Source of the DNA: a virus
IMG/VR virus record: IMGVR_UViG_3300008259_000132
Location: 1 to 28,183 of that record
Reading direction: 5' to 3' (one strand)
Length of the DNA stretch: 28,183 bases
The notes beneath the pieces are model-generated. The model did not search any database, was not told where the DNA came from, and saw only the letters and a program-made list of their open reading frames with translations. The translations under genes were made by a program, and so were the position numbers. Below are positions 1-28,183 of the stretch, in pieces (the first letter of the stretch is position 1; every line of letters starts with the position of its first letter).

Positions 1-108
1 AGTTACCCGAAGTTCCACTTGTACCTGATGTGCCTGAGTTACCCGAAGTTCCACTTGTACCTGAAGTACCAGAGTTACCCGAAGTTCCACTTGTACCTGA
101 TGTACCAC
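1..108. repeat. Three 36-bp tandem repeats coding 12-residue GTS/GNS units
   Basis: Three direct copies lie at 1-36, 37-72 and 73-108. They are nearly identical, differing only in the last dozen bases. There are no spacers. On the minus strand each copy encodes three Gly-Thr-Ser triplets and one Gly-Asn-Ser triplet. The array probably continues beyond the window. Confidence 0.9.
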
Positions 109-262
109 TCGTTCCCCCTGTGATACTTGCAGTCAAGGCAGAAAACGCGATTTGCCCCGAGGTACCTGATGTTCCCCCAGTATAGTCTGTTACTATATAT
201 AATACATCAGCGGGGGCTGCTGATAATACTATCGGTAAATCCGTAATTCTTGTTGTTGCCAT
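1..262 (-). CDS. Tail fibre/collar-like protein with GTS/GNS triplet repeats (3' part outside window)
   Basis: Partial gene: it starts with ATG at 260-262 and stays open to the window edge. I translated about 87 codons. The N-terminal part begins [17 protein letters not shown] and looks like a short globular head. After about residue 33 it turns into Gly-Thr-Ser and Gly-Asn-Ser triplets, at first interrupted by a short non-repetitive stretch and then continuous. Gly-X-Y triplets rich in Thr and Ser are common in phage fibres, where they form extended trimeric shafts, so a shaft of a tail or host-recognition fibre is the likely role. It is the last gene of the tail block and has its own leader with a TATTTATA element 4 bases before the start. 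The coding DNA is a 36-bp tandem repeat, which favours length variation by slippage. The C-terminal receptor-binding part is not visible. Fibre role is inferred from composition and position. Confidence 0.75.
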
Positions 263-305: not shown

Positions 306-1190
306 TTAACAGTTTGAACATATTAAACCAATTACAAATCCATCCGTTCCTATTTGCCACATTTCACATCCACCAACATCATTACTATAATACAAATTAT
401 TACCGTTGAAAGGAGTTGTTAGACCATTATCTGTATAGAAACTTACGGCTGTGGTCCAACTTGGGGATGCAGAATAAAGTGTCTGAGTCAGTGAATACGA
501 ACCAGACTGACAAATCGAATCACCACTGGAAACTAGATATGAATTTATTTCTTGTTGTAAAATCCAATTACTACCATCTTGACTTATCAACTCAATACCA
601 TCTTGAGTTATGATTGCAATTTCAAAAACTGATATTGTTGGAGTTGGTGTTGGTGTTGTGGTTGGAGTAGCTGTTTGTGTTGGAGTTTCGGTTTGAGTCG
701 GAGTTTGCGTCGTTGTCGAAGTTGGAGTTTCAGTCGGTGTTTCTGTAGGAGTTTCGGTAGGAGTCTCAGAAGGTGTATATGTTGGTGTTTGCGTTGGTGT
801 ACTTGTAAATGTAGGAGTTGGCGTTGGTGTTTCGCTTCCTGATGGCGTAATCGAAGGTGTGGGAGTGTTTGTCGGAGTTTCAGATGGGGTAGCTGTTTGT
901 GTTGGAGTTACATTAGGTGTTGGAGTGAAACTAGGTGTTGGTGTAGGAGTAGGTGTAATACAAGGACCCAATTGCACAACAACCCCATTTATCATTTGAG
1001 TTCTTGTCTGAGCAGAATACACTGGTGTTGAACCTGTTGTATCTACGTAAACATCAAAGGGACCTAACGCATTTGTATTCGGAGTAATCCGTACAATATA
1101 GTTATTACAGGTATCCGCCGAGATTTGTTGTTCTATTAAATTATCACAACCTGGCGCAGTATTGACAACTATAATGGATTGAAGGGGCAT
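306..1190 (-). CDS. Tail-associated protein with Pro/Thr-rich stalk (294 aa)
   Basis: No family recognised. Three parts are visible. An N-terminal domain (residues 1-77) contains three cysteines and short beta-like segments. A low-complexity stalk (about 78-186) is built almost only of Pro and Thr with some Ser and Glu, in TPTPTP and ETPT runs. A C-terminal domain (about 187-294) has a Cys at its middle and ends in CSNC. Pro/Thr stalks of this kind are extended linkers in surface and fibre proteins, here separating two small globular domains. There is no signal peptide or membrane segment. It lies between the 110-aa Cys-rich protein and the GTS fibre gene and has a leader of 90 bases with a TATTTATT element. 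A role in host contact or fibre attachment is inferred from composition and place. Confidence 0.75.
636..957 (-). repeat. Low-complexity Pro/Thr-coding tract
   Basis: About 320 bases made of degenerate repeats coding Thr-Pro, Ser-Pro-like and Glu-Thr-Pro units, read on the minus strand. It corresponds to the stalk of the 294-aa protein. Synonymous codons vary between units, which suggests selection on the protein rather than a recent DNA expansion, except around 735-775, where nearly identical GETPT-type units occur. Confidence 0.75.
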
Positions 1191-1280: not shown

Positions 1281-1613
1281 TTATTCTGTAGAGTAAATGT
1301 CAAAAGCACAAGAGGTTTCTTGGATGGAAATATTTACAATACAATCTACTAGGTCAACCGTGATGTTAAAAGCACAACCAAAAACACAATCTAAAATTTT
1401 AAATACAGAACAACCACTCGAATCAACCAAAGTCAACATTATTTGTGGGGCTGTTTGGAAAATTGATGGGATAGTAGAGTTATAATCAACAGTTGGTGGG
1501 ACAGTAGAATTGATAGTACCGAGCAGTGTTTGATAATTTCCATATACATCGGAAATAAAGACACTAACGGGGTAGGTTGCTCCAGTAATCGAATCAATTC
1601 TTACTTGTACCAT
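1281..1613 (-). CDS. Small Cys-rich protein of the fibre cassette (110 aa)
   Basis: Not recognised. It starts one base after the stop of the SprB-repeat gene (TGA, then C, then ATG), so it is probably translationally coupled to it. The first half looks like a small beta-rich domain that ends in the phrase LVDSSGC. That phrase echoes the VVDSSGC end of SprB-type repeats in the neighbour. The second half is unusual: four further cysteines, alternating with short hydrophobic stretches such as CAFNITVDLVDC. There is no signal peptide, so disulphides would have to form on the released virion. A fibre accessory or capping subunit that works with the upstream repeat protein is plausible, but this rests only on coupling and resemblance. 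Confidence 0.65.
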   Translation of the reverse strand: MVQVRIDSITGATYPVSVFISDVYGNYQTLLGTINSTVPPTVDYNSTIPSIFQTAPQIMLTLVDSSGCSVFKILDCVFGCAFNITVDLVDCIVNISIQETSCAFDIYSTE

Positions 1614-1614
1614 G

Positions 1615-3753
1615 TCAACAACTTATATCATATTCGATAGCAATATCGAAGTTTATTATTTGGTTATCCAAAAAGGTGTTTGCGGCATTTTTTTGTATTG
1701 TAATCTGATTATTCACTGTATCTACAATTACATTTGATACACCTGGAACTGATTGTAACAAAGAAGTTATCGAATCTATCCAAACATTGTCTGAAGGAAC
1801 ATCCACAAGAGTCTTACTTGTATAAAAAGAAGTCGATGCACTCAGACCCACAGGTTCAACATTTACAATTGCAAAAAATTCTGCCGAATTTAAAATACAG
1901 TTCGGGTCACCGTCAGTCAAATCAACAAAACCATCGTTCAACATCTGTAATAATCCCAAATTTACTTCAGCAGTGATTGGCATTTCTTGGTCCCCAATCA
2001 AAAATTCATAATATCCGCTCTTTTGACCCAAACAGGATATCTCTGTCGATTGTGAATAATAACATCCAACCGAATCACTAATTGTAAGACTATATGTACC
2101 ACCTGTCAAACCATTTACAGTTATAGATTGAGGATTCCCTGGTATATTATCTGACCAATTGAAGGTAAATGGCGGGGTACCTGATGATATAAATGCTGTA
2201 ATTACACCATCTGAACCATTACCACAACTTTCACTATAAAGACTGAACTGAAGAGTGGATGATTGTGAAATGAAAACTGTAGTACCCTTTGTACATCCAC
2301 TTGAATCAACTACAGAAATAAAGTGATTACCTGATGAAAGATTTGTAACTGTTACCGCAGATTGTGAAGTATCCAAGTCAACGGCCAAACCATCAACAAA
2401 ATAATTGAAAGGTTCGGTTCCACCTGAGGTTTTGAATATCTGTATTGCGCCATTATCCTGACCACAAGTTGTACCTGTAGATGCTATGTAGACATCAAAT
2501 AAATCGTTTGCAATTATATAGACATCTTGTGAATAAACGCAACTACTATCATCACTTACTACCACAGTGTAATCTCCTGTCACAAGACCATAAAATGTAT
2601 AAATTGGTGAATTTAACGTTAAACTCTCGGAACTACTATCAGGTTTTATTAGGGTATAAGTGAAAGGAGGATTTCCTTGGAACAAAGATATTTGTATACT
2701 ACCGTCAGAACTTGAACAATTTGAATTTGTTGTTGTAATACTAACAGAACCTATAGATTGTGGTGAACTTATAGAAGTGCCTTCGGCTATTGTACATAAT
2801 CCCGCATCAGTAACCTGAAATTGATAAGAACCTGATGGAATATTAGATATTGTAAAATTCTGTTGATAAGAAATTCCAACATTCCCTGTTGAAGCAGAAT
2901 AATAATAAGGCGCTGTGCCTCCTGTAACATATATTGTTAAAGACCCATCGGAACTGAAACAAGTTGGGGTTACAGCACTGAAATATCCAAATCCTAAAGG
3001 CTCCACCTCTCCGACATAAACGCTCTCTGATTTTTTACAATTATTTGCATCGGTTACTTCTAAAGAATAAACTCCCGTAGTTAGACCTGTTATTGTTGTT
3101 CCTGTACCACCATTACTCCAAACATATTTGAAGGGAGCCGTACCTGTTACTCCTGTGACATATAATTTTCCTAAAGGATTCGATGTACTAGAACAATATG
3201 AATTAGGAACAACATAAAAACCAAAATCAACAGGATTGGACTTTTCAATTATAAAATCAGAAGTTCTACCTGTACAACCTCCAAAATCCACAACTTCTAT
3301 ACTATATGTAGATGAAGATAATCCCTCAAATACTGCTATGTCTTCATCAGTAGTAACTGTTTGAATAATACTATAGGATTCATCAAGCAAGTTATAAATT
3401 GTGGAGGAGTAATCTGAAGTAGAAGTTGCAGATACTGAACCATTATTGGTATTACATGTTGTTGGGAAAATTGAAACTATTGAAGCAGTGACACCGCTTG
3501 AAACAGGTATATTTACGGTGAATGAATCATTCACAGGTAAACTACTATCATTCAACCTTATTGCATATGTTCCATAACCCAAATTTGTTCTTACAGAGGT
3601 ACCTATAATCAAATATTCAACTGGAGGTAACGGGGGGTCCACCCACTCGATAGTATAAGGAGGTGTTCCACCCGATGGAGTTATACTTATTGCCCCCGAG
3701 GAAGTATGGGAACAATCACCTGTAACCCCTAATATATAATTAAATTGAGCCAC
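1615..3753 (-). CDS. Tail adhesin with seven SprB-like repeats (712 aa)
   Basis: Residues 1 to about 565 form seven tandem units of about 80 residues. Most share a pattern: a Cys near the start followed by DG-S-I, then GGTPPF-Y-W or similar, then GL-G-Y-L-V-D, then GC. Clear examples are TGTAPFKYVWSNGG with TTGVYSLEVTDANNC, and SGTPPFTFNWSDN with TGGTYSLTISDSVGC. This is the pattern of the SprB repeat known from Flavobacterium gliding adhesins and other Bacteroidota surface proteins. The last 147 residues form a separate C-terminal domain rich in Asp, Val and Ile. The start is GTG at 3751-3753, sharing one base with the TAG stop of the 989-aa gene, so translation is likely coupled. It lies at the baseplate-to-fibre transition and probably forms an extended host-contacting fibre. 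The repeat call is made by eye, but the period and motif are consistent. Confidence 0.85.
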   Translation of the reverse strand: MAQFNYILGVTGDCSHTSSGAISITPSGGTPPYTIEWVDPPLPPVEYLIIGTSVRTNLGYGTYAIRLNDSSLPVNDSFTVNIPVSSGVTASIVSIFPTTCNTNNGSVSATSTSDYSSTIYNLLDESYSIIQTVTTDEDIAVFEGLSSSTYSIEVVDFGGCTGRTSDFIIEKSNPVDFGFYVVPNSYCSSTSNPLGKLYVTGVTGTAPFKYVWSNGGTGTTITGLTTGVYSLEVTDANNCKKSESVYVGEVEPLGFGYFSAVTPTCFSSDGSLTIYVTGGTAPYYYSASTGNVGISYQQNFTISNIPSGSYQFQVTDAGLCTIAEGTSISSPQSIGSVSITTTNSNCSSSDGSIQISLFQGNPPFTYTLIKPDSSSESLTLNSPIYTFYGLVTGDYTVVVSDDSSCVYSQDVYIIANDLFDVYIASTGTTCGQDNGAIQIFKTSGGTEPFNYFVDGLAVDLDTSQSAVTVTNLSSGNHFISVVDSSGCTKGTTVFISQSSTLQFSLYSESCGNGSDGVITAFISSGTPPFTFNWSDNIPGNPQSITVNGLTGGTYSLTISDSVGCYYSQSTEISCLGQKSGYYEFLIGDQEMPITAEVNLGLLQMLNDGFVDLTDGDPNCILNSAEFFAIVNVEPVGLSASTSFYTSKTLVDVPSDNVWIDSITSLLQSVPGVSNVIVDTVNNQITIQKNAANTFLDNQIINFDIAIEYDISC

Positions 3754-6722
3754 TAACTACAATTTATTGTTAGGTTTATTCCTACATTCAGATAAAGTGT
3801 TTGATTCACAAATGCTGGATTTGATGTTGTATTAAATACAGTTAGGGTATTACCATTCAAAGTAAAGTTATACCCGTAACTATTCATTTCTGGCAAATAC
3901 AAAACAAGTGCTTGTCTCCATTCCAAATTTGACGGGTAACCATTAGAACCATAACCTGTATAGAACATTTCATTCACTATTGTTTGGTTTCCAATTTTCA
4001 AATCCACGTACCACTCAGAAACCAAAGTATCAAGCACACATTCATTCAAAGAGATTCCTTGTTCAGCTAAAACTGAATTTAATGATGATAATAATATACT
4101 ACTAAAATTAGATACAGTAGGATTTCCGTTCAACCATGGATATATAAAAATACTAACATATTGTTGAGAAACTGTACCATTAAAAATTCCTGAAGTAATC
4201 CTACATGGGTCTTTGACTTTTGGAAGAATCAAACAACCCCTTTGTCTTCTATATACCAACTTTTGTCTGTGGAGAATTGAATTTTCTAATTTTATTCCTC
4301 CATTCCAAATTGTTGTTGCAGGTACCATTTGTTCGACTAACTTCATCCAAAACGGACCTAATCCGTCCACGTAATCAATTAGTTTTTGATATGTGTAATC
4401 ATAGTTAGGAAAACCGGTCTGTTGTTCTGAAAGAACATATTTCCACCACAAGGATTGTAAATTGGGATAACCACCGGTTTTACCATCGGTTATAAATTGT
4501 CTATTCCTTGTGTTTATCATATTTTGCCAAAAAGTTTGAGCAAATTCAAAAAAAGTTTTCTTTTTAGGTTCTGGGTTGACAAAAGTCCAATCTAAACCAC
4601 CAGGGCTTGGGTATCCTACCGTCAAACCTGATTCAGGTATTGGATAATCGTATTGTACAGACTCCCTCCAAACATCAAAAAGTAATCCTTGTGCTGGATT
4701 CAGGAATATATCTACGTTTTTGACATTTAACACCAACTTTTCATTACCTACAAAATAATACGAATTGAAATTGGCATCCCTTGAAATTCTGAATAGGTCA
4801 TCATCCGCTAACCAAGACTTTTTATTATCAACAACTCTCTCTAAAGAATATCCCAAAGTCATATATGGAAAATCTCTAAACCTATCCAAATATTGTTGAC
4901 CATATGTGAATGGAACAAGTTGAGTTTGTATGTCAAAATTTTGTCCTGTAAATACTTGTCCTGTGTTTACAACTTCGTCAGGACTTCTATGGTCAGGTGT
5001 TGTTTCATACCAACCAGCACCTAATTGGAAGAAGTAGGTTTCAGTGTTTACAGGTGCCTTTGGATAACCCTCGTCGTCGACAGGATATTCCCCTCTGAAA
5101 ACATTTACACTCTCATAGGTTGATGTGGCAGTAAAGGCACTGAAAACTTGCCCTTGAAATCTATAAGTTACATTAGATAATGTTGGTAATTGATTTGTAT
5201 ACGTTCCTCCTGATATGGATGCAAATTGAGACTCAAAATTCTCCATATTGATTCTTTGGTCTGCAAGGTAAATGTGTTCATTATATTCTATTAGTGAATC
5301 AGGGGCACCTATGAGTCTGAGTAAAAATTCTATAGATTTTCTTGTACCTTTAGATTTGAAAAGATACGAAGCATTCAGAATTAAATTTCTATAGAAAGCA
5401 TAATTCAATTCCGTTGGTGTAAGTGCTTTGGCGTATCCAGGGTAGTTCGGCTCGTTTGTATTTCCAAAAATGGATTGAAGAAAATCCTCATCAGTTATGG
5501 GAGAAAAATTAGAAGACCAACCCAAAGTTTGAGCTAAGTTTACTAATAGCTGTGACGGTATATCATTACCTGGATTGTAATTTACCGAATTCATGAATGC
5601 CAATCCATCAATGAATTGTTTTATTTGGTCAAAACTCCTACCATAAATCTGCAATATTTTTTCAACTTTTTGACCAAGAGTATCAAATTCTTTGAATGCA
5701 TCTGTAACCAAAAATCTTGATATCAAATTAGTTTTATAGGAATCTAGTTCTACCGCAATATCTTGTAATTGAGTTAGGTAATTATCAAAATTCACACCCG
5801 CAATATCTAAGTTCCAATTTCCGTTCTTAGGGAATGTTACTTGAGTATATTGTGTGAAGAATTGACCTGTACTATTTTGTTGTGGTAATTGGAAGAATGC
5901 TGTATATTCTGGTTGCGTAAAACGATTCATCAAGAATTGTTCTACCGTATCAAAACTTTCAGCAAAAACTTTGTCTACTATAAAATCGTTTGGTCTTATT
6001 AAAAAGTTATCATAAACAGTGGTTGCTGTTGTACCGAATGGTGCACCAGAAACGAAGAAAGATAAAGTTCCTGTTGTAAGCGAAGTCGATGGTGTAAAAG
6101 ATACAACTTTGAAAATGTCATCATTTATGTTTATACAATAATCTAAATAAGTTCTCGTTAGATTTCTAAGATATGATGTGGTAATTTCTCTAGCTGCAAT
6201 ATTTGTATCTGCACTGAAACTATAATCAATATCAAATGGATTGATGATTCTATCTAATGTAACATCAAATGAAGTTTCATCTGCAACTGGGTCATAGACA
6301 ACGTTTATTGCTGTTGCTCCTGTTGTAAAATCCAAATTAGTGAAAACTACCTCTAAAGCTGCAGGAAAATAATTTATAATATGTGTGACCGAAACCTCGA
6401 ACCTTTTTGACAAGGAACCATATAGAGAGAAGTTCAAAACTTGTGATACATCGTAATTCGGATAAACTCTGAATTGTGATGCTAAAATTCTTCTCGATTC
6501 AAAAACATCTTCGATGTTCATACTATCGAGAGTCATAGGTTCAGAAAAAGCACCGACATTAAACTTCCTGTTTACTTTCTCTGTGACTCCCGCAGTGAAA
6601 TCAAAATTACCCAAAGTCAAACCCCCTCCGTTGACAGTCTGTAAACCAACTATATTGTCAGCGAAGGTTCCTGAACCACTACCAGGCACAGGGGGATAAA
6701 AATATTTTTTTTCTTGTGCCAT
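3753..6722 (-). CDS. Large baseplate/tail protein with tail-protein-I-like region (989 aa)
   Basis: The central part, about residues 345-495, contains LFKSKGTRKSIEFLLRLIGA, preceded by helices with an L-A-LGW segment. That layout resembles P2 gpI-type tail proteins, which form the inner wedge with gpJ/gp6 and gp25. Such proteins are counterparts of T4 gp7 in simple contractile systems. The flanking 340 and 490 residues are beta-rich and unassigned and would be phage-specific additions. Residues 71-76 read EDVFES, a motif also found near the N-terminus of the 556-aa tail protein. The ATG at 6722 overlaps the previous stop by one base (TAATG), and the TAG stop overlaps the next GTG start by one base, so this is a coupled operon. 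The assignment to the inner baseplate is moderate in confidence; the protein is certainly structural from context. Confidence 0.75.
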   Translation of the reverse strand: MAQEKKYFYPPVPGSGSGTFADNIVGLQTVNGGGLTLGNFDFTAGVTEKVNRKFNVGAFSEPMTLDSMNIEDVFESRRILASQFRVYPNYDVSQVLNFSLYGSLSKRFEVSVTHIINYFPAALEVVFTNLDFTTGATAINVVYDPVADETSFDVTLDRIINPFDIDYSFSADTNIAAREITTSYLRNLTRTYLDYCININDDIFKVVSFTPSTSLTTGTLSFFVSGAPFGTTATTVYDNFLIRPNDFIVDKVFAESFDTVEQFLMNRFTQPEYTAFFQLPQQNSTGQFFTQYTQVTFPKNGNWNLDIAGVNFDNYLTQLQDIAVELDSYKTNLISRFLVTDAFKEFDTLGQKVEKILQIYGRSFDQIKQFIDGLAFMNSVNYNPGNDIPSQLLVNLAQTLGWSSNFSPITDEDFLQSIFGNTNEPNYPGYAKALTPTELNYAFYRNLILNASYLFKSKGTRKSIEFLLRLIGAPDSLIEYNEHIYLADQRINMENFESQFASISGGTYTNQLPTLSNVTYRFQGQVFSAFTATSTYESVNVFRGEYPVDDEGYPKAPVNTETYFFQLGAGWYETTPDHRSPDEVVNTGQVFTGQNFDIQTQLVPFTYGQQYLDRFRDFPYMTLGYSLERVVDNKKSWLADDDLFRISRDANFNSYYFVGNEKLVLNVKNVDIFLNPAQGLLFDVWRESVQYDYPIPESGLTVGYPSPGGLDWTFVNPEPKKKTFFEFAQTFWQNMINTRNRQFITDGKTGGYPNLQSLWWKYVLSEQQTGFPNYDYTYQKLIDYVDGLGPFWMKLVEQMVPATTIWNGGIKLENSILHRQKLVYRRQRGCLILPKVKDPCRITSGIFNGTVSQQYVSIFIYPWLNGNPTVSNFSSILLSSLNSVLAEQGISLNECVLDTLVSEWYVDLKIGNQTIVNEMFYTGYGSNGYPSNLEWRQALVLYLPEMNSYGYNFTLNGNTLTVFNTTSNPAFVNQTLYLNVGINLTINCS

Positions 6723-16158: not shown

Positions 16159-17997
16159 TTAGGAGAATGTAATTGTTTGGAAGTTCTTCACTGACACTCG
16201 AATGTCTTTATTAGGGAATCTAATTTGATAGACCTGATTAGGTTGTGCAAAGATAGTGTCATCAACAGGTTCTATTTGTCTTGTCTCAGGGTCTGAATAT
16301 CTCATGGAAGTTTCAGCTGAAGAATATTGTCCACCAACCTCGTTAAAAATATCTAGTCCTGCCACGGTCAAAACTCCATTAGTATTTTGTATTTGACTTC
16401 TCAACTCAGACAAATAAACATTTTGACCTAATTGTCGTAACTGTGGATTGAAATATGTAGATACTTTATCGATTACAGAAGAAATCACTTGTCCTGAGTT
16501 TTGAGCTGAATCCAAAACAATAGATACATCTACGCTCAAATCAATCACCTCAGCACTGAAAATTGATATATAATCATTCATCATTCTATAATTTGACAAA
16601 TAATTCGCAATATTTTGTTTTAAGGTATTGGAGACAATATTCGTAAGTTTACCCTGTGTATCATACGATAGAATTTGAATCAATATTTTATTATCGTTTT
16701 CTGTTATTGATACTTTAGCCGGTGCACCAAATTGTGAAGGCATATTCCTGATTATGGATTCATAGTCTTGAACTGTTACAGCTCTTTTTTGTGCAGAAAA
16801 ATTGAATGATACATAGTTACGAATCTCATCGGTGCTTGGCATGTTAGCCCCACCGATTGCCGCAGTTACGTTTGTACATCTCAAAGAGTTTACAACAGCT
16901 GTATTGATTGTTTCAGATGGACCGTTCACAAAAAATGAAACTGTGCCAACTTGATTGATTACATTTGTACCTAAGTTAGTATTCAATCCTCCACCCACTC
17001 TATACTGAATGAACAAAGTGGAATTAGGTCTCAAAGCTGCACCTAAGGAAATATTATTAGAATACTTTTGGATATTCAAAGTGGTACCTAACGTAGTGAA
17101 TTGGTCCAAGGCATCCTGTGCAGTATTTGTACCACCACCGAAAGTCATTTTTTTAAAACCCTCAGAGGTGTATTCGGTAATAAACCTATTTTGAGTTTGT
17201 ATATATCTTCCAACTTTGATTCCTGGTTGGTCTGATACTTTAGTAGGGTCTTCTACAAATACTCTATCCTCAGCTAGGGCGTCAACTTCATACCATCTAT
17301 TTGCAGCACCAAGAAACTCAGCTGTTGTAGGAATGTTTGTATATTGTGTTCCATCCTTCAACAATACACTTGTAATACCCAAAACATTTTTTTCAGGTAG
17401 GAACAATTCAAAGAATGGTTTCACATCACTTGGTGTTATTACTCTTTTGAATACTTTTGTAATTCCGTTTACAACTATTTCTCTTTTGGTGATGGTATAG
17501 TTTACTAAAATCCCATTACTATTGAAATTTGGTATTTTAACTCTATTGGGAAAACCTTGAGAATTGTACGGAGATGAGAAATCAATATCCTCAACATTTT
17601 CAAATACCAATCCAGAACCTATAATTTGAGAACCTCTCACCAAAGTTCCTAAGTATCTCTCATCTTCTTTATCTCCAAACGCCGGAACCGTAATTGAAAA
17701 ATCCACTAATGATACCGATGGTCTCATACCAGGGATTTTCAAACCGTAGGTTCTCGCTATGTTATATATAGAAGTTTTTTGTTGTGCGTATTGTAGAACA
17801 GTCTCTTGAATACTTCTATCTATATGGTAATGTAAGTTATCGGCAACCGCAGCATTCAAATCTAAGAATACAGAAAATACTGATGCATCATTGAAATCTT
17901 GAATCAGTTCAGGGTAATAAGTCCTTACGTAATTTTGTAGTTCAACCCTGATTGACGCAAAGTCCCTTGACGTATATGATATTTGACGGTTAGCCAT
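16159..17997 (-). CDS. 6: Baseplate wedge protein, gp6/baseplate J family (612 aa)
   Basis: The N-terminus, ISYTSRDFASIRVELQNYVR, followed by a YPE-like segment and NDASVFSVFLDLNAAVADNL, is the conserved opening of T4 gp6-type wedge proteins. Further along come LGIYG-type features and an RAVTVQDYESIIRNMPS segment (about residue 415), typical of the baseplate J domain. Length (612) is close to T4 gp6 (660). In T4 the gp6 dimer forms the inner ring that joins the six wedges and transmits sheath contraction. It starts 5 bases after the gp25-like stop, the usual 25-6 order, which strongly supports the call. No odd features; the stop is followed by an 89-base gap. Confidence 0.92.
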   Translation of the reverse strand: MANRQISYTSRDFASIRVELQNYVRTYYPELIQDFNDASVFSVFLDLNAAVADNLHYHIDRSIQETVLQYAQQKTSIYNIARTYGLKIPGMRPSVSLVDFSITVPAFGDKEDERYLGTLVRGSQIIGSGLVFENVEDIDFSSPYNSQGFPNRVKIPNFNSNGILVNYTITKREIVVNGITKVFKRVITPSDVKPFFELFLPEKNVLGITSVLLKDGTQYTNIPTTAEFLGAANRWYEVDALAEDRVFVEDPTKVSDQPGIKVGRYIQTQNRFITEYTSEGFKKMTFGGGTNTAQDALDQFTTLGTTLNIQKYSNNISLGAALRPNSTLFIQYRVGGGLNTNLGTNVINQVGTVSFFVNGPSETINTAVVNSLRCTNVTAAIGGANMPSTDEIRNYVSFNFSAQKRAVTVQDYESIIRNMPSQFGAPAKVSITENDNKILIQILSYDTQGKLTNIVSNTLKQNIANYLSNYRMMNDYISIFSAEVIDLSVDVSIVLDSAQNSGQVISSVIDKVSTYFNPQLRQLGQNVYLSELRSQIQNTNGVLTVAGLDIFNEVGGQYSSAETSMRYSDPETRQIEPVDDTIFAQPNQVYQIRFPNKDIRVSVKNFQTITFS

Positions 17998-18002
17998 TAT
18001 TT

Positions 18003-18479
18003 TTAAATATTGATAATTATAAAATCACTTTCGGCAAATGTTTGAGCATTTGTGGAATAATCTATTTTTATTTTTGCAGTATACTCGGCTGTACCCCTTC
18101 CAGGTAGTCTGTAAACATCATAAAGTCTTGCAGTTTCATCCGCAGTTATTTGACCCATTTCCATGTTGACCTCCATAGATTCATCAGCCGGTTCGATGGT
18201 AATTTGATTCACCAATAAATTTGGCATAAATCTTTGTATCGCATCTCTTATATCTGACTCTATAGCTTGGAATGTCAAACCGTCCAAAGGTTCGAAAACG
18301 AATTCGTATATTCTAGTTCCGAATTCAGGTAAATAATATCTAGAACCCTTCCTCGTCAGAATAAGATGAATTAAATCAGCTCTTATTTGTTGAGAGGTAT
18401 ACTCAGTCAGCTCAAGAAAGTCCCCTCTGAAAGAATCGTTGAATGGGAATTTTATACCATAGGTTGTTCCGTCTGCCAT
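18003..18479 (-). CDS. 25: Baseplate wedge/sheath initiator, gp25-like (158 aa)
   Basis: Contains the gp25 (GPW) pattern: IRADLIHLILTRKGSRYYLP (about 32-51), then EFGTRIYEFVFEPLD, then a helix with IESDIRDAIQRF and a strand with LVNQITIEP. The EFG-R motif with a following hydrophobic strand is diagnostic. T4 gp25 is 132 residues; this one has an N-terminal extension of about 20 residues. The protein nucleates the tail sheath on the inner baseplate. It is the first gene of the structural block, and a TATTTATG element lies 4 bases before its ATG in the 20-base gap that separates it from the DUF5522 gene. It is followed closely by gp6. Confidence 0.92.
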   Translation of the reverse strand: MADGTTYGIKFPFNDSFRGDFLELTEYTSQQIRADLIHLILTRKGSRYYLPEFGTRIYEFVFEPLDGLTFQAIESDIRDAIQRFMPNLLVNQITIEPADESMEVNMEMGQITADETARLYDVYRLPGRGTAEYTAKIKIDYSTNAQTFAESDFIIINI

Positions 18480-18499: not shown

Positions 18500-18688
18500 T
18501 TATTTTTTTATTAAAGTATTACCCTTTTTCCACTTAGGGTCATATGGACAGTGTCTACATCCATTCCCACAACATTGTCCCCTTCGAATATGGAACTCTT
18601 CTGTGAAAATTATTCTGTCACCTTCGCTATAATACAAAGGGAGAAGTTTTTCTGACTTCTCCCCTTTATTTTTATCATTTTTTTTCAT
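18500..18688 (-). CDS. DUF5522-family Cys-rich small protein (62 aa)
   Basis: Residues 19-50 carry the family pattern: YYSEGDRIIFTEEFHIRRGQ, then CCGNGCRHCPYDP. Four cysteines (C39, C40, C44, C47) in a CCxxxCxxCP arrangement suggest metal or Fe-S binding, though the family has no established function. The family is widespread in cellular Bacteroidota, and eukaryotic relatives share the CRHCPY core. The first 17 residues are Lys/Glu-rich and less conserved. The ATG shares one base with the TAA stop of the ribonucleotide reductase gene (TAATG), so the two are coupled and probably work together. Possible roles are a metal or redox accessory to the reductase or a general host-like factor; both are inference. 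A strong hairpin lies inside codons 7-18. Confidence 0.85.
   Translation of the reverse strand: MKKNDKNKGEKSEKLLPLYYSEGDRIIFTEEFHIRRGQCCGNGCRHCPYDPKWKKGNTLIKK
18636..18667 (-). terminator. Hairpin within the 5' end of the DUF5522 gene, downstream of the reductase
   Basis: Nine paired bases (GGGAGAAGT / ACTTCTCCC) with a 7-base loop, extended by an AAA/TTT pairing past one bulge. On the transcript the stem is followed by only a short U run. It begins about 20 bases after the reductase stop. It looks like a terminator or an RNA 3'-end stabiliser that happens to lie inside the coding sequence of the next gene. Confidence 0.5.
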
Positions 18689-20550
18689 TAGACAAATTTT
18701 ACTTCACAAGCTCCACCGGCACAAGCCGCTTCGCCTGATAAGTCTGTATTATCATCTACTTCTACTATTTTTGATAAATCCACGTCGTGTAACGTTTTCA
18801 TCAACTCCTCGTATTTTTCTTTCGAACAATCTTCGAATGGTGCTTGAATATAAGTTCCTCCATCGTATGGTAATACCGATAATCCATTATAATACTCTTT
18901 ATTCTCCCACATCCACTCTCCTACAGCAGGCCACTCGTGTTCACGAATGGAAACTGTTGCAGATACGTTGTGAGCATTTGAACCACTTCTGTGACCTGGT
19001 TTAATCCACTCTTGTTGAACTCTTTTTACTCTTTCAAGAAGTTGAATTGGTGATTCGTTTCTCAGGATTGACCCTTCGGGTGCTTTTTGTGGAATACCAA
19101 TTACTGCAGTATCGTGTGGTCTGAAATATTCATCCTCAACTAACTCTGAGTGATTATCTTTTAAGTAAGAATAGATTGATTCATTTTTACCAACTCTAAC
19201 CCTTCTTATATAATAATCATTGTGCCAAGCATGGATTCCTGATGATGTACCTAATGTAAGTGAAGTTGTACCTGCTGGTTTAACTGTTGTTGTTCTCGCT
19301 GCAGGGTTGATACCAATAACGTCAGCAACTCTTTTATTTTCTTCTTTAACAACTTTCGCCGCTGCTTTCATATTTAAACCCAACACAGCTCCTGAACCAA
19401 TACCTGTCATTGAAATTCCAATCAAAGCATCTTTCTCTGTTGTTCTTTGCCAAATAGGTCTAAGATAATGGAAATCAGTATATCCTGCTTGTAGGGTTCC
19501 AATAAATGTTGCAGCCTTTACTCTGTCCTCATAATCTTCCTGTGATACAACATTCGATACGTTTACCTCTGTAAGATTACAGAATTGGAAAGGTCTTAGA
19601 GCAATTTCACAACATGGGTTTGTTCCCCAATCTTTATCGTTACTCAAGTAGATTCCAGGTTCTCCCGCACCACTAGCCTCGATTCTTTTCCAAAGGTCCA
19701 TAAAATAGTCTTTGGTAATCTTGTGTCTCATTAGTACTGCGGAATTATTAGCTCGTCCTCTTTGAGGGTTATGTTCCCACCAAGAACCACTCTTACAACC
19801 AATCATTTCCTCATCTGTTGCGGAAAATAATGAAATAAGTGCCGCTCTTCTGATACCACCAGCCAATACAGCGTCAGCAATATGACATACCATATCATGA
19901 ACTTCAATAGCTCTTAGTTTTTCACCATCTGACTTGGAATCCAAAATTCCTTCGAGTTTTATAAGACACTCTTTGAGGGGTTGAGGTCCAGGTGCTTTAC
20001 CACCTGAGGTTACCAACCGAGCCCCTTTTGGTCTGATGTCACTGAAATCAAACTGAATGTGAGAACCTCCATAAAAATAGGATTTAACCAATACTTTTAC
20101 AGCGTCAGCCCATCCTTCAATAGAATCTGCAACTAACCATCTTCTACCTCTATCCTTACTTGGTTTTCTAATTTCGGGAAGTTGTTCAACGTGATGATTT
20201 TGTACGGAATAACCAACCCCTGTACCTCCAAGTAATAAGAACATGATTTCAGAGAATACTCTCCAATCGTCTACGGGTGCGTATGCACAGTTGTAAATTC
20301 TGTTTGGTGAGATTTCGATTGGTTTTCCTGCGAACTGCATTGACCTCATCGATGGGAGAACTTGTTTCTTGTAAACATACATGTAGTTCTCACGGATTTC
20401 TTTTTCTAATTGGGGATACTTTTTGATGTGCATCTCCATGTTTCTTGTTACTAACTCTTGCCAAGTCTCTCTTCTCTTTAACTCAGGGATGTACTTTGCA
20501 TACTTCATGTACACCGTGATGTCTGATAAAATTCTGTTTGAAATGTCCAT
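18688..20550 (-). CDS. rtpR: Adenosylcobalamin-dependent class II ribonucleoside-triphosphate reductase (620 aa)
   Basis: Reduces ribonucleotides to deoxyribonucleotides with a cobalamin-generated thiyl radical. Key residues by position: C88 (in RIYNCAYAP) and C324 (in FQFCNLTEVN) form the redox pair; C313 in NPCCEI is the radical cysteine; E315 and N311 are the catalytic partners. The C313-C324 distance of 11 equals that in the Lactobacillus enzyme (C408-C419). C610 and C615 form a C-terminal CAGGAC pair, the same Cx4C used to re-reduce the active site. The motif GGTGVGYSVQ (108-117) is typical of the monomeric RTPR group. At 620 residues it is about 120 shorter than the 739-residue Lactobacillus enzyme. 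It is the first gene after a hairpin-bearing control region and is coupled to DUF5522. Triphosphate preference is inferred from resemblance to RTPR. Confidence 0.93.
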   Translation of the reverse strand: MDISNRILSDITVYMKYAKYIPELKRRETWQELVTRNMEMHIKKYPQLEKEIRENYMYVYKKQVLPSMRSMQFAGKPIEISPNRIYNCAYAPVDDWRVFSEIMFLLLGGTGVGYSVQNHHVEQLPEIRKPSKDRGRRWLVADSIEGWADAVKVLVKSYFYGGSHIQFDFSDIRPKGARLVTSGGKAPGPQPLKECLIKLEGILDSKSDGEKLRAIEVHDMVCHIADAVLAGGIRRAALISLFSATDEEMIGCKSGSWWEHNPQRGRANNSAVLMRHKITKDYFMDLWKRIEASGAGEPGIYLSNDKDWGTNPCCEIALRPFQFCNLTEVNVSNVVSQEDYEDRVKAATFIGTLQAGYTDFHYLRPIWQRTTEKDALIGISMTGIGSGAVLGLNMKAAAKVVKEENKRVADVIGINPAARTTTVKPAGTTSLTLGTSSGIHAWHNDYYIRRVRVGKNESIYSYLKDNHSELVEDEYFRPHDTAVIGIPQKAPEGSILRNESPIQLLERVKRVQQEWIKPGHRSGSNAHNVSATVSIREHEWPAVGEWMWENKEYYNGLSVLPYDGGTYIQAPFEDCSKEKYEELMKTLHDVDLSKIVEVDDNTDLSGEAACAGGACEVKFV

Positions 20551-27088: not shown

Positions 27089-28183
27089 TTAAATAAAAGT
27101 GAATACACCAGGTGCGGTAACAGGTACCGCATTTCCTGTTGTTGTTACTGATATTTGTAGTTGTTGTGGTGGTGTACTAACTATTTGTGGTATTGAGAAT
27201 TTTATTTTATTAGTTGATATAAATTGTACTGTTCTGAAATCCACTTGAGTTGTTCCAACCGTTATAGTTCTGACGTATTCTAAGTTTGTACCTGAAAGAC
27301 TCATTACAGTTCCAGTAGTACCTGTCAGTGGTGAGAATCCTGATAATACTGTTGGTGGACACGCCGGTATTGTTGTTTGTTGACCTCCTCCTCCTTGATT
27401 GAATGCGGTTCCTATATCAGTCCTCAATCCCACTCTTCCGGCACTTGCAATTGCCTGGTCAACTATACTTCCATAAATTCCCAAAAATCTATCTATGTTC
27501 GATTCATAATATTCTAGGGTAACCTGAGCAGCAGGGAATGCAGTACAATAATATTCAATAATTTTTTCTTTAAAAACTCCTCCTGTAATCTGTGAAATTC
27601 TCGGTGTTATAAGACCTGTCATAAATTTCAGGTAGGTATTTACATCATTAAATTTCGCTGCCGGTAATGATTTATCACCACTAATGGTTTTGGTTTTAAT
27701 ACATGCATATACGTTAGGTACAAAATCCTGTGTAAGCGATGATGCTATTGGTTTATCCAAAGTAATATTACTGAAGTTATTATCATACGCAACAAACTCT
27801 CCTTTAGGGTCACCAGCAATACTGAATGTTCGAATATAAGATAGGACATAAACTATAGTCTGAAGCTCTGCGTTAGGTGCGGTACCTGTATAGGTTTTGA
27901 GACTATTAGAGAAATCAGTTGCGGTCAATTTTGTAAGTTGTCCTGTAGTTGATTCAAGTCTATCAAATTGCGGTGATAGATTCGCTCTACAAGCATTTTG
28001 GGCATCTACAGAGAGGTTATTAGAATTTTGTATTAGGTTTGTTTCTTTTCCTTGGTTTGTGGTGGTTATTGTTGTGTTTTGGTCTGTCTTTTGTATAACT
28101 AAGTTTTCTAATTGAGTAAGAAGATTTTGATTTATCTTTTGAAGATAGTTGTCCTCCACAGGATAATCATATATACCCTGTCT
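27089..28183 (-). CDS. Structural protein with C-terminal IPT/TIG-like domain (5' end outside window)
   Basis: The frame is open to the window edge. The first possible start inside is a GTG at 28159, but eight in-frame codons precede it (RQGIYDYP), so the gene most likely starts upstream and is partial. The visible part has a Thr/Asn-rich helical N-region (about 1-60), a helical middle domain (about 65-250 of the 356 codons from the GTG), a Gly/Gln linker (GGGGQQ), and at about 270-356 an IPT/TIG-like Ig fold: PPTVLSGFSPLTGTTGTVMS, then LSGTNLEYVRTITVG and a closing VTTTGNAVPVTAPGVFTF. IPT/TIG domains occur in phage tail and head decoration proteins. Function is otherwise unknown; a virion protein is likely. 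Confidence 0.75.
   Translation of the reverse strand, partial: RQGIYDYPVEDNYLQKINQNLLTQLENLVIQKTDQNTTITTTNQGKETNLIQNSNNLSVDAQNACRANLSPQFDRLESTTGQLTKLTATDFSNSLKTYTGTAPNAELQTIVYVLSYIRTFSIAGDPKGEFVAYDNNFSNITLDKPIASSLTQDFVPNVYACIKTKTISGDKSLPAAKFNDVNTYLKFMTGLITPRISQITGGVFKEKIIEYYCTAFPAAQVTLEYYESNIDRFLGIYGSIVDQAIASAGRVGLRTDIGTAFNQGGGGQQTTIPACPPTVLSGFSPLTGTTGTVMSLSGTNLEYVRTITVGTTQVDFRTVQFISTNKIKFSIPQIVSTPPQQLQISVTTTGNAVPVTAPGVFTFI

Follow-up and report, generated by a model that had tools for sequence, protein, structure and literature searches.

The window, a 28,183-nucleotide stretch of viral DNA, encodes a 712-aa protein that consists of seven SprB-family repeat units followed by a C-terminal domain (CTD). 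On balance, we favour the reading that this protein is a baseplate-attached arm or adaptor of constant length in a contractile-tailed phage that probably infects Bacteroidota. The constant number and order of the units, together with their inheritance, point to a baseplate arm or adaptor with a structural role, for which weak glycan contact is possible. The seven beta-sandwich domains would form a chain of fixed length, which the CTD would dock to the preceding 989-aa baseplate-region protein (gp989) and to the downstream fibre. The array would then serve mainly as a spacer or adaptor to hold the variable fibres (Thr/Pro-stalk and collagen-like) in position, and would probably also touch surface polysaccharides at low affinity, with its N-terminal units outermost.

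Seven SprB-family units and a C-terminal domain

The Pfam SprB model (PF13573) matched the whole protein with 86.3 bits (cut-off 28, E 1e-24), and four stretches individually exceeded the cut-off. It also matched 18/18 aligned relatives and none of the 14 control genomes. So as not to rest on one short Pfam model, we made an HMM solely from bacterial SprB repeats (GTDB loci). This bacterial-only HMM detected 7/7 units, with i-E values from 2e-3 (R2) to 6e-18 (R3), while the best i-E among the controls (reversed window proteins and 20 shuffles) was 0.16. As this HMM finds all of the units and the controls do not match it, both the family assignment and the count of seven are firm. An earlier sequence-only reading had called SprB repeats, with seven units of about 80 residues; the two profiles bear out the identification and the bacterial-only HMM the count, and the unit length agrees with the 75–80 aa spacing of bacterial SprB repeats in our fetched set. 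The same reading had given the correct coordinates without a strand (the gene is on the minus strand) and a C-terminal domain of 147 residues, which exists but is slightly shorter by our delimitation. The features of the gene are as follows:

1615..3753, minus: SprB-repeat tail protein, 712 aa, GTG start (whole gene; IMG/VR relatives)
3481..3753, minus: unit R1, residues 1-91 (bacterial SprB HMM, i-E 5e-10)
3217..3480, minus: unit R2, residues 92-179, the most degenerate (bacterial-only HMM, i-E 0.002; a second HMM, 1.9e-5)
2983..3216, minus: unit R3, residues 180-257, the most canonical (bacterial-only HMM, i-E 6e-18)
2740..2982, minus: unit R4, residues 258-338 (bacterial-only HMM, i-E 5e-15)
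2488..2739, minus: unit R5, residues 339-422 (bacterial-only HMM, i-E 2e-9)
2248..2487, minus: unit R6, residues 423-502 (bacterial-only HMM, i-E 4e-11)
2035..2247, minus: unit R7, residues 503-573 (bacterial-only HMM, i-E 2e-15)
1618..2034, minus: alpha/beta CTD, about 139 aa, residues 574-712 (hhalign, hmmsearch and AF2 model)

The units follow the pattern C...G...GGTPPY.Y.W...GL..G.Y...V.D..GC in tandem at about 80 aa, and R1 begins directly at the N-terminus, with no separate N-terminal anchor domain. In terms of this pattern, units R1 to R7 start at C14, C99, C187, C265, C346, C430 and C510. Both Cys of each unit (window 1615-3753) are kept in >90% of lineages, though phage proteins fold in the cytoplasm; the pair may form disulphides after lysis or have another role.

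Position in the tail block

The other genes considered here are listed below:

16159..18479, minus: baseplate wedge genes Baseplate_J and gp25 (Pfam E 9e-8 and 2e-12), which anchor the tail-block assignment
3753..6722, minus: gp989, 989-aa baseplate-region protein and candidate docking partner (profile hits; its identity matrix tracks that of the SprB protein)
1281..1613, minus: 110-aa protein encoded downstream of the SprB gene and kept in synteny in nearly all relatives; a weak candidate for one additional, degenerate Ig-like unit
306..1190, minus: Thr/Pro-stalk fibre protein (sequence)

The proposal that the gene lies between baseplate and fibre genes was right, with Pfam matches to Baseplate_J and gp25 and with Thr/Pro-rich and collagen-like proteins downstream. 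The gene adjoins gp989, and its start shares one base with the gp989 stop (TAGTG), an arrangement that resembles a coupled operon. The order p1620-p583-p266-p363-p302-gp989-SprB-g7-fibre is kept in 91 loci if contig ends and the occasional fusion or loss downstream of the SprB gene are disregarded, so that the gene has the setting of a tail or baseplate operon member. In profile searches, the gp989 family included gp109 of Flavobacterium phage immuto and a 1336-aa protein of Microcystis phage Mel-JY01 (E 3.7e-5 and 1.5e-9), both of which are encoded near baseplate wedge genes. Only these profile searches tie gp989 to immuto and Mel-JY01, as tblastn with the 989-aa protein returned no close phage relatives. 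Neither the SprB protein nor its upstream neighbours had an informative match in PHROGs. For the 110-aa protein, comparison with the repeats gave an hhalign E of 0.003 but a probability of 11%, which is suggestive, not significant.

Two observations concern neighbouring genes in the relatives. First, L059 and L069 have the 989-aa gene in two separate frames, through either assembly errors or real breaks. Second, the collagen-like GTSGTSG protein (window 2-262 and relatives L009, L011 and L069) ranges from 106 to >1400 aa among near-identical relatives, partly owing to contig ends.

A fixed array inherited with gp989

At least 438 IMG/VR contigs encode a relative of the SprB protein, and 91 proteins and loci were compared in detail (90 relatives for the length count). 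The length is 710-727 aa in 84/90 relatives. With the bacterial-only HMM, seven units were detectable in 73/91 proteins, six in 17 and five in 1; because protein length is constant, the undetected units are probably degenerate ones like R2. Across 35 lineages (identity <80%), all 245/245 units best matched the same-numbered unit of another phage, and the median identity between units of one protein was 32.5% in the phages versus 44% in the fetched bacterial arrays. This positional orthology, combined with the internal divergence, indicates that the array was assembled once, before the clade diversified, with no expansion, shuffling or re-capture since. Pairwise identities of the SprB protein also track those of gp989 (Spearman 0.92) much more closely than those of the next downstream gene (0.55). 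By these comparisons, an old and fixed array has been passed on vertically together with its baseplate neighbour.

In six relatives (L017, L028, L065, L078, L088 and L094; several separate contig pairs), the SprB protein continues in frame into a Thr/Pro stalk, with further sequence beyond the stalk in 5/6. The fusions point to a single assembly that includes both the SprB arm and the downstream fibre. The ends of the L088 and L094 fusion proteins look like a putative propeller repeat. Separately, an 829-aa Thr/Pro-stalk fibre protein of a 326-kb relative (G002) contains a second SprB-type unit (L181 889-3378, minus).

The same comparisons bear on whether the array could instead be the primary receptor-binding fibre, with domains that recognise a host surface glycan and set the host range. 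Its domains come from an adhesin family, its gene is the last conserved one before the variable fibre block, R1-R2 are the most variable units among close relatives, and the tail-associated BACON arrays of crAss-like phages are thought to aid host binding (PMC6949934). Lower conservation of the SprB protein (mean identity 54%, versus 60-83% for its upstream neighbours) could likewise reflect receptor pressure. However, purifying selection prevails throughout, with dN/dS of about 0.1 (range over the domains 0.09-0.14, with the minimum in the CTD and the maximum in R1-R2, from closer relatives in pairs that are not independent). A receptor-binding fibre would be expected to carry a hypervariable or exchanged part, yet this is found in the genes further downstream, which differ far more in length and content across loci. 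The array itself lacks a hypervariable tip, has neither changed its unit number nor shuffled its units, and is tied in inheritance to a baseplate gene rather than swapped. We therefore regard a primary receptor-binding role as unlikely.

A C-terminal domain in common with gp989

By hhalign, the CTD shares homology with the final ~95 residues of gp989 (probability 95.5, E 1.6e-8), whereas the other tail-block profiles gave E >= 0.05 against it. When large relatives were searched with hmmsearch, three had a CTD match at the equivalent gp989 position (E 7e-4, 0.0015 and 0.01), and no other second site was found. Two adjacent tail genes that end in the same domain may reflect docking or a pseudo-symmetric contact, and the common domain offers a concrete hypothesis for how the arm is attached to the baseplate. 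The CTD was not found in 395 Bacteroidota genomes, a set that had no positive control, so its absence there is not proven. Modelled alone, the CTD reached a mean pLDDT of 80.8 in AF2. Its best solved matches, polymerase little-finger domains (Z 6.5, 108 residues, rmsd 3.8), are too weak for a family name.

In a bolder version of the structural arm, the widespread aquatic clade would have converted an adhesin array of Bacteroidota into a baseplate arm with seven fixed domains. This arm would bind the polysaccharide that SprB-family adhesins of the host recognise, and would dock through the domain common to the two neighbouring baseplate proteins. We consider this full combination quite unlikely.

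Predicted structure and comparison with virion proteins

An AlphaFold2 model built with 18 relatives has seven beta-sandwich domains followed by the alpha/beta CTD, with residues 1-573 predicted as all-beta (mean pLDDT 79, pTM 0.34). At these values, the single domains are credible, but the overall shape and inter-domain angles are unreliable. The top three Foldseek matches in the PDB were fragments of GhpA, the grappling-hook protein of Aureispira, a member of the Bacteroidota (E 3e-19 to 3e-18). VIA-align superposed 505 residues on GhpA (Z 10.3, rmsd 26.1, 16% identity), and other Ig and FN3 chains scored about equally. A confidently predicted fibronectin III fold had been put forward as grounds for rejecting the SprB assignment. 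The comparison does not discriminate: SprB repeats have a beta-sandwich architecture similar to that of FN3 and Ig domains, and the model has matches in each of these groups, so the SprB call would survive an FN3-like fold.

By sequence, the bacterial SprB profile matched solved phage virion proteins (neck whisker gp24, decoration proteins and, weakly, Hoc) and weakly matched the GhpA chain (E 0.002). SprB repeats thus fall within a broad Ig/PKD-like group whose members are already found on phage particles. Window 27089-28159 also encodes a protein that carries an IPT/TIG domain, likewise Ig-like in fold, at its C-terminus (Pfam E 1.4e-4).

These matches to virion proteins would suit a loosely bound decoration through which virions adhere to mucus or to polysaccharide in the environment rather than to the host receptor, as with other phage Ig-like proteins, and one published report (PMC13370021) describes phage Ig-like adhesins that bind epithelium. 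Against a loose decoration stand the strictly syntenic location of the gene in a baseplate operon, its translational overlap, and the homology between the CTD and a baseplate-region protein, all of which suggest an integral component. A decoration is thus quite unlikely.

The gliding connection raised by the sequence-only reading found no support, and mimicry of the host's gliding adhesins, or engagement with them (through SprB partners or by riding moving adhesins), is very improbable: the domain family is common to gliding adhesins, these travel over the cell surface (PMC12635249), and SprB and RemA may be phage receptors according to one paper (PMC13288928), but SprB repeats are widespread in Bacteroidota proteins (>50 repeat matches in each of three genomes), so that the domain by itself is not indicative, the locus holds no reference to gliding genes and the idea rests on the domain name, and the window protein has no type IX secretion sorting domain (Pfam and NCBIfam, up to E 0.1). 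A Por_Secre_tail match in relative L021 is internal (residues 119-156) and below the cut-off. As a whole, the protein also does not resemble an SprB gliding adhesin, which is very large, has many repeats and is linked to sprF, sprC and sprD; it has 712 aa and seven repeats and lies in a phage tail block.

Relation to known systems

The closest known parallel comes from crAss-like phages, in which tail-associated BACON tandem repeats are stable in number (eight in the main lineage), are divergent from the bacterial copies and have a suggested role in host binding (PMC6949934). Both cases involve a tandem array of a Bacteroidota surface domain in a tail-linked phage ORF, with a stable number of units that have diverged from bacterial copies. 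Unlike the BACON arrays, the window protein has seven SprB (PF13573) units and a CTD homologous to its baseplate neighbour, belongs to an aquatic uncultured clade, and gave no BACON match in a Pfam scan. The SprB array fits the known pattern of phages using such adhesin domains.

Bacteroidota SprB adhesins and surface proteins have the same repeat family, the ~80-aa spacing and the two conserved Cys per unit. They are often much larger, however (up to 48 repeats in one fetched frame), and their repeats are more alike; gliding adhesins are type IX-exported, whereas the window protein is short and ordered and lacks the sorting domain. GhpA (PDB 9flp, 9fly, 9flw and 9flv) provides the best structural matches (Foldseek E 3e-19 to 1e-12), but it is a bacterial protein of 5898 residues with no phage context, and the large whole-chain rmsd makes only single domains comparable.

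Among phage proteins, UniProt A0A6J5LD72 ('SprB repeat', uncultured Caudovirales phage) belongs to the same family: it has 714 aa, is 33% identical over the full length, and its CTD aligns. It is known by its database label, with no description in the papers that we found. A tblastn search with the SprB protein for close cultured phage relatives returned only LR756502.1, a 642-kb huge uncultured phage with an SprB array of 1675 aa and ~14 units (L180 13579-18604). As that array differs from the seven-unit clade in length and has more uniform units, it is probably a separate acquisition. A search of a literature library with few subscription journals found no papers on SprB repeats in phage proteins.

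SprB repeats are one of the building blocks that define Bacteroidota surface adhesins, and little is known of their ligands. Being short, soluble and evolutionarily fixed, a seven-unit array available in hundreds of phage contigs is a handy object for learning what an SprB repeat binds. It also brings a second domain family into the pattern first described for BACON arrays, in which Bacteroidota phages build tail parts from the adhesin domains of their host phylum.

Host and origin of the repeats

A Bacteroidota host is likely, judging from the relatives of other genes in the window. The window's UvsX is 43% identical to that of Flavobacterium phage immuto and had no other match in the phage collection, and the Baseplate_J protein has matches in immuto, in a Microcystis phage and in one uncultured phage. 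No tRNA genes were present as host clues. There is no SprB array at the equivalent gene position in Mel-JY01 or immuto; as immuto, the closest cultured relative, has no SprB match, tails of this type can do without the arm.

The sequence-only reading had raised the possibility that the repeats were taken from the host. An ancient Bacteroidota origin is plausible, since in most size-matched draws R1, R3, R4 and R7 resemble bacterial repeats more than they do their sibling units in the phage; as the bacterial set was picked by consensus similarity, this makes descent from a Bacteroidota adhesin array plausible and no more. Recent or repeated capture was rejected: GC is 0.358 versus 0.353 in the neighbouring genes, and all units are positional orthologues. 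In bacterial genomes, a search by patterns for a full-length homologue gave 94 matches, none of which was a relative. Elsewhere in the window (18688-20550), a 620-aa ribonucleotide reductase is 70% identical to that of Mel-JY01, while the other genes tested are far more distant.
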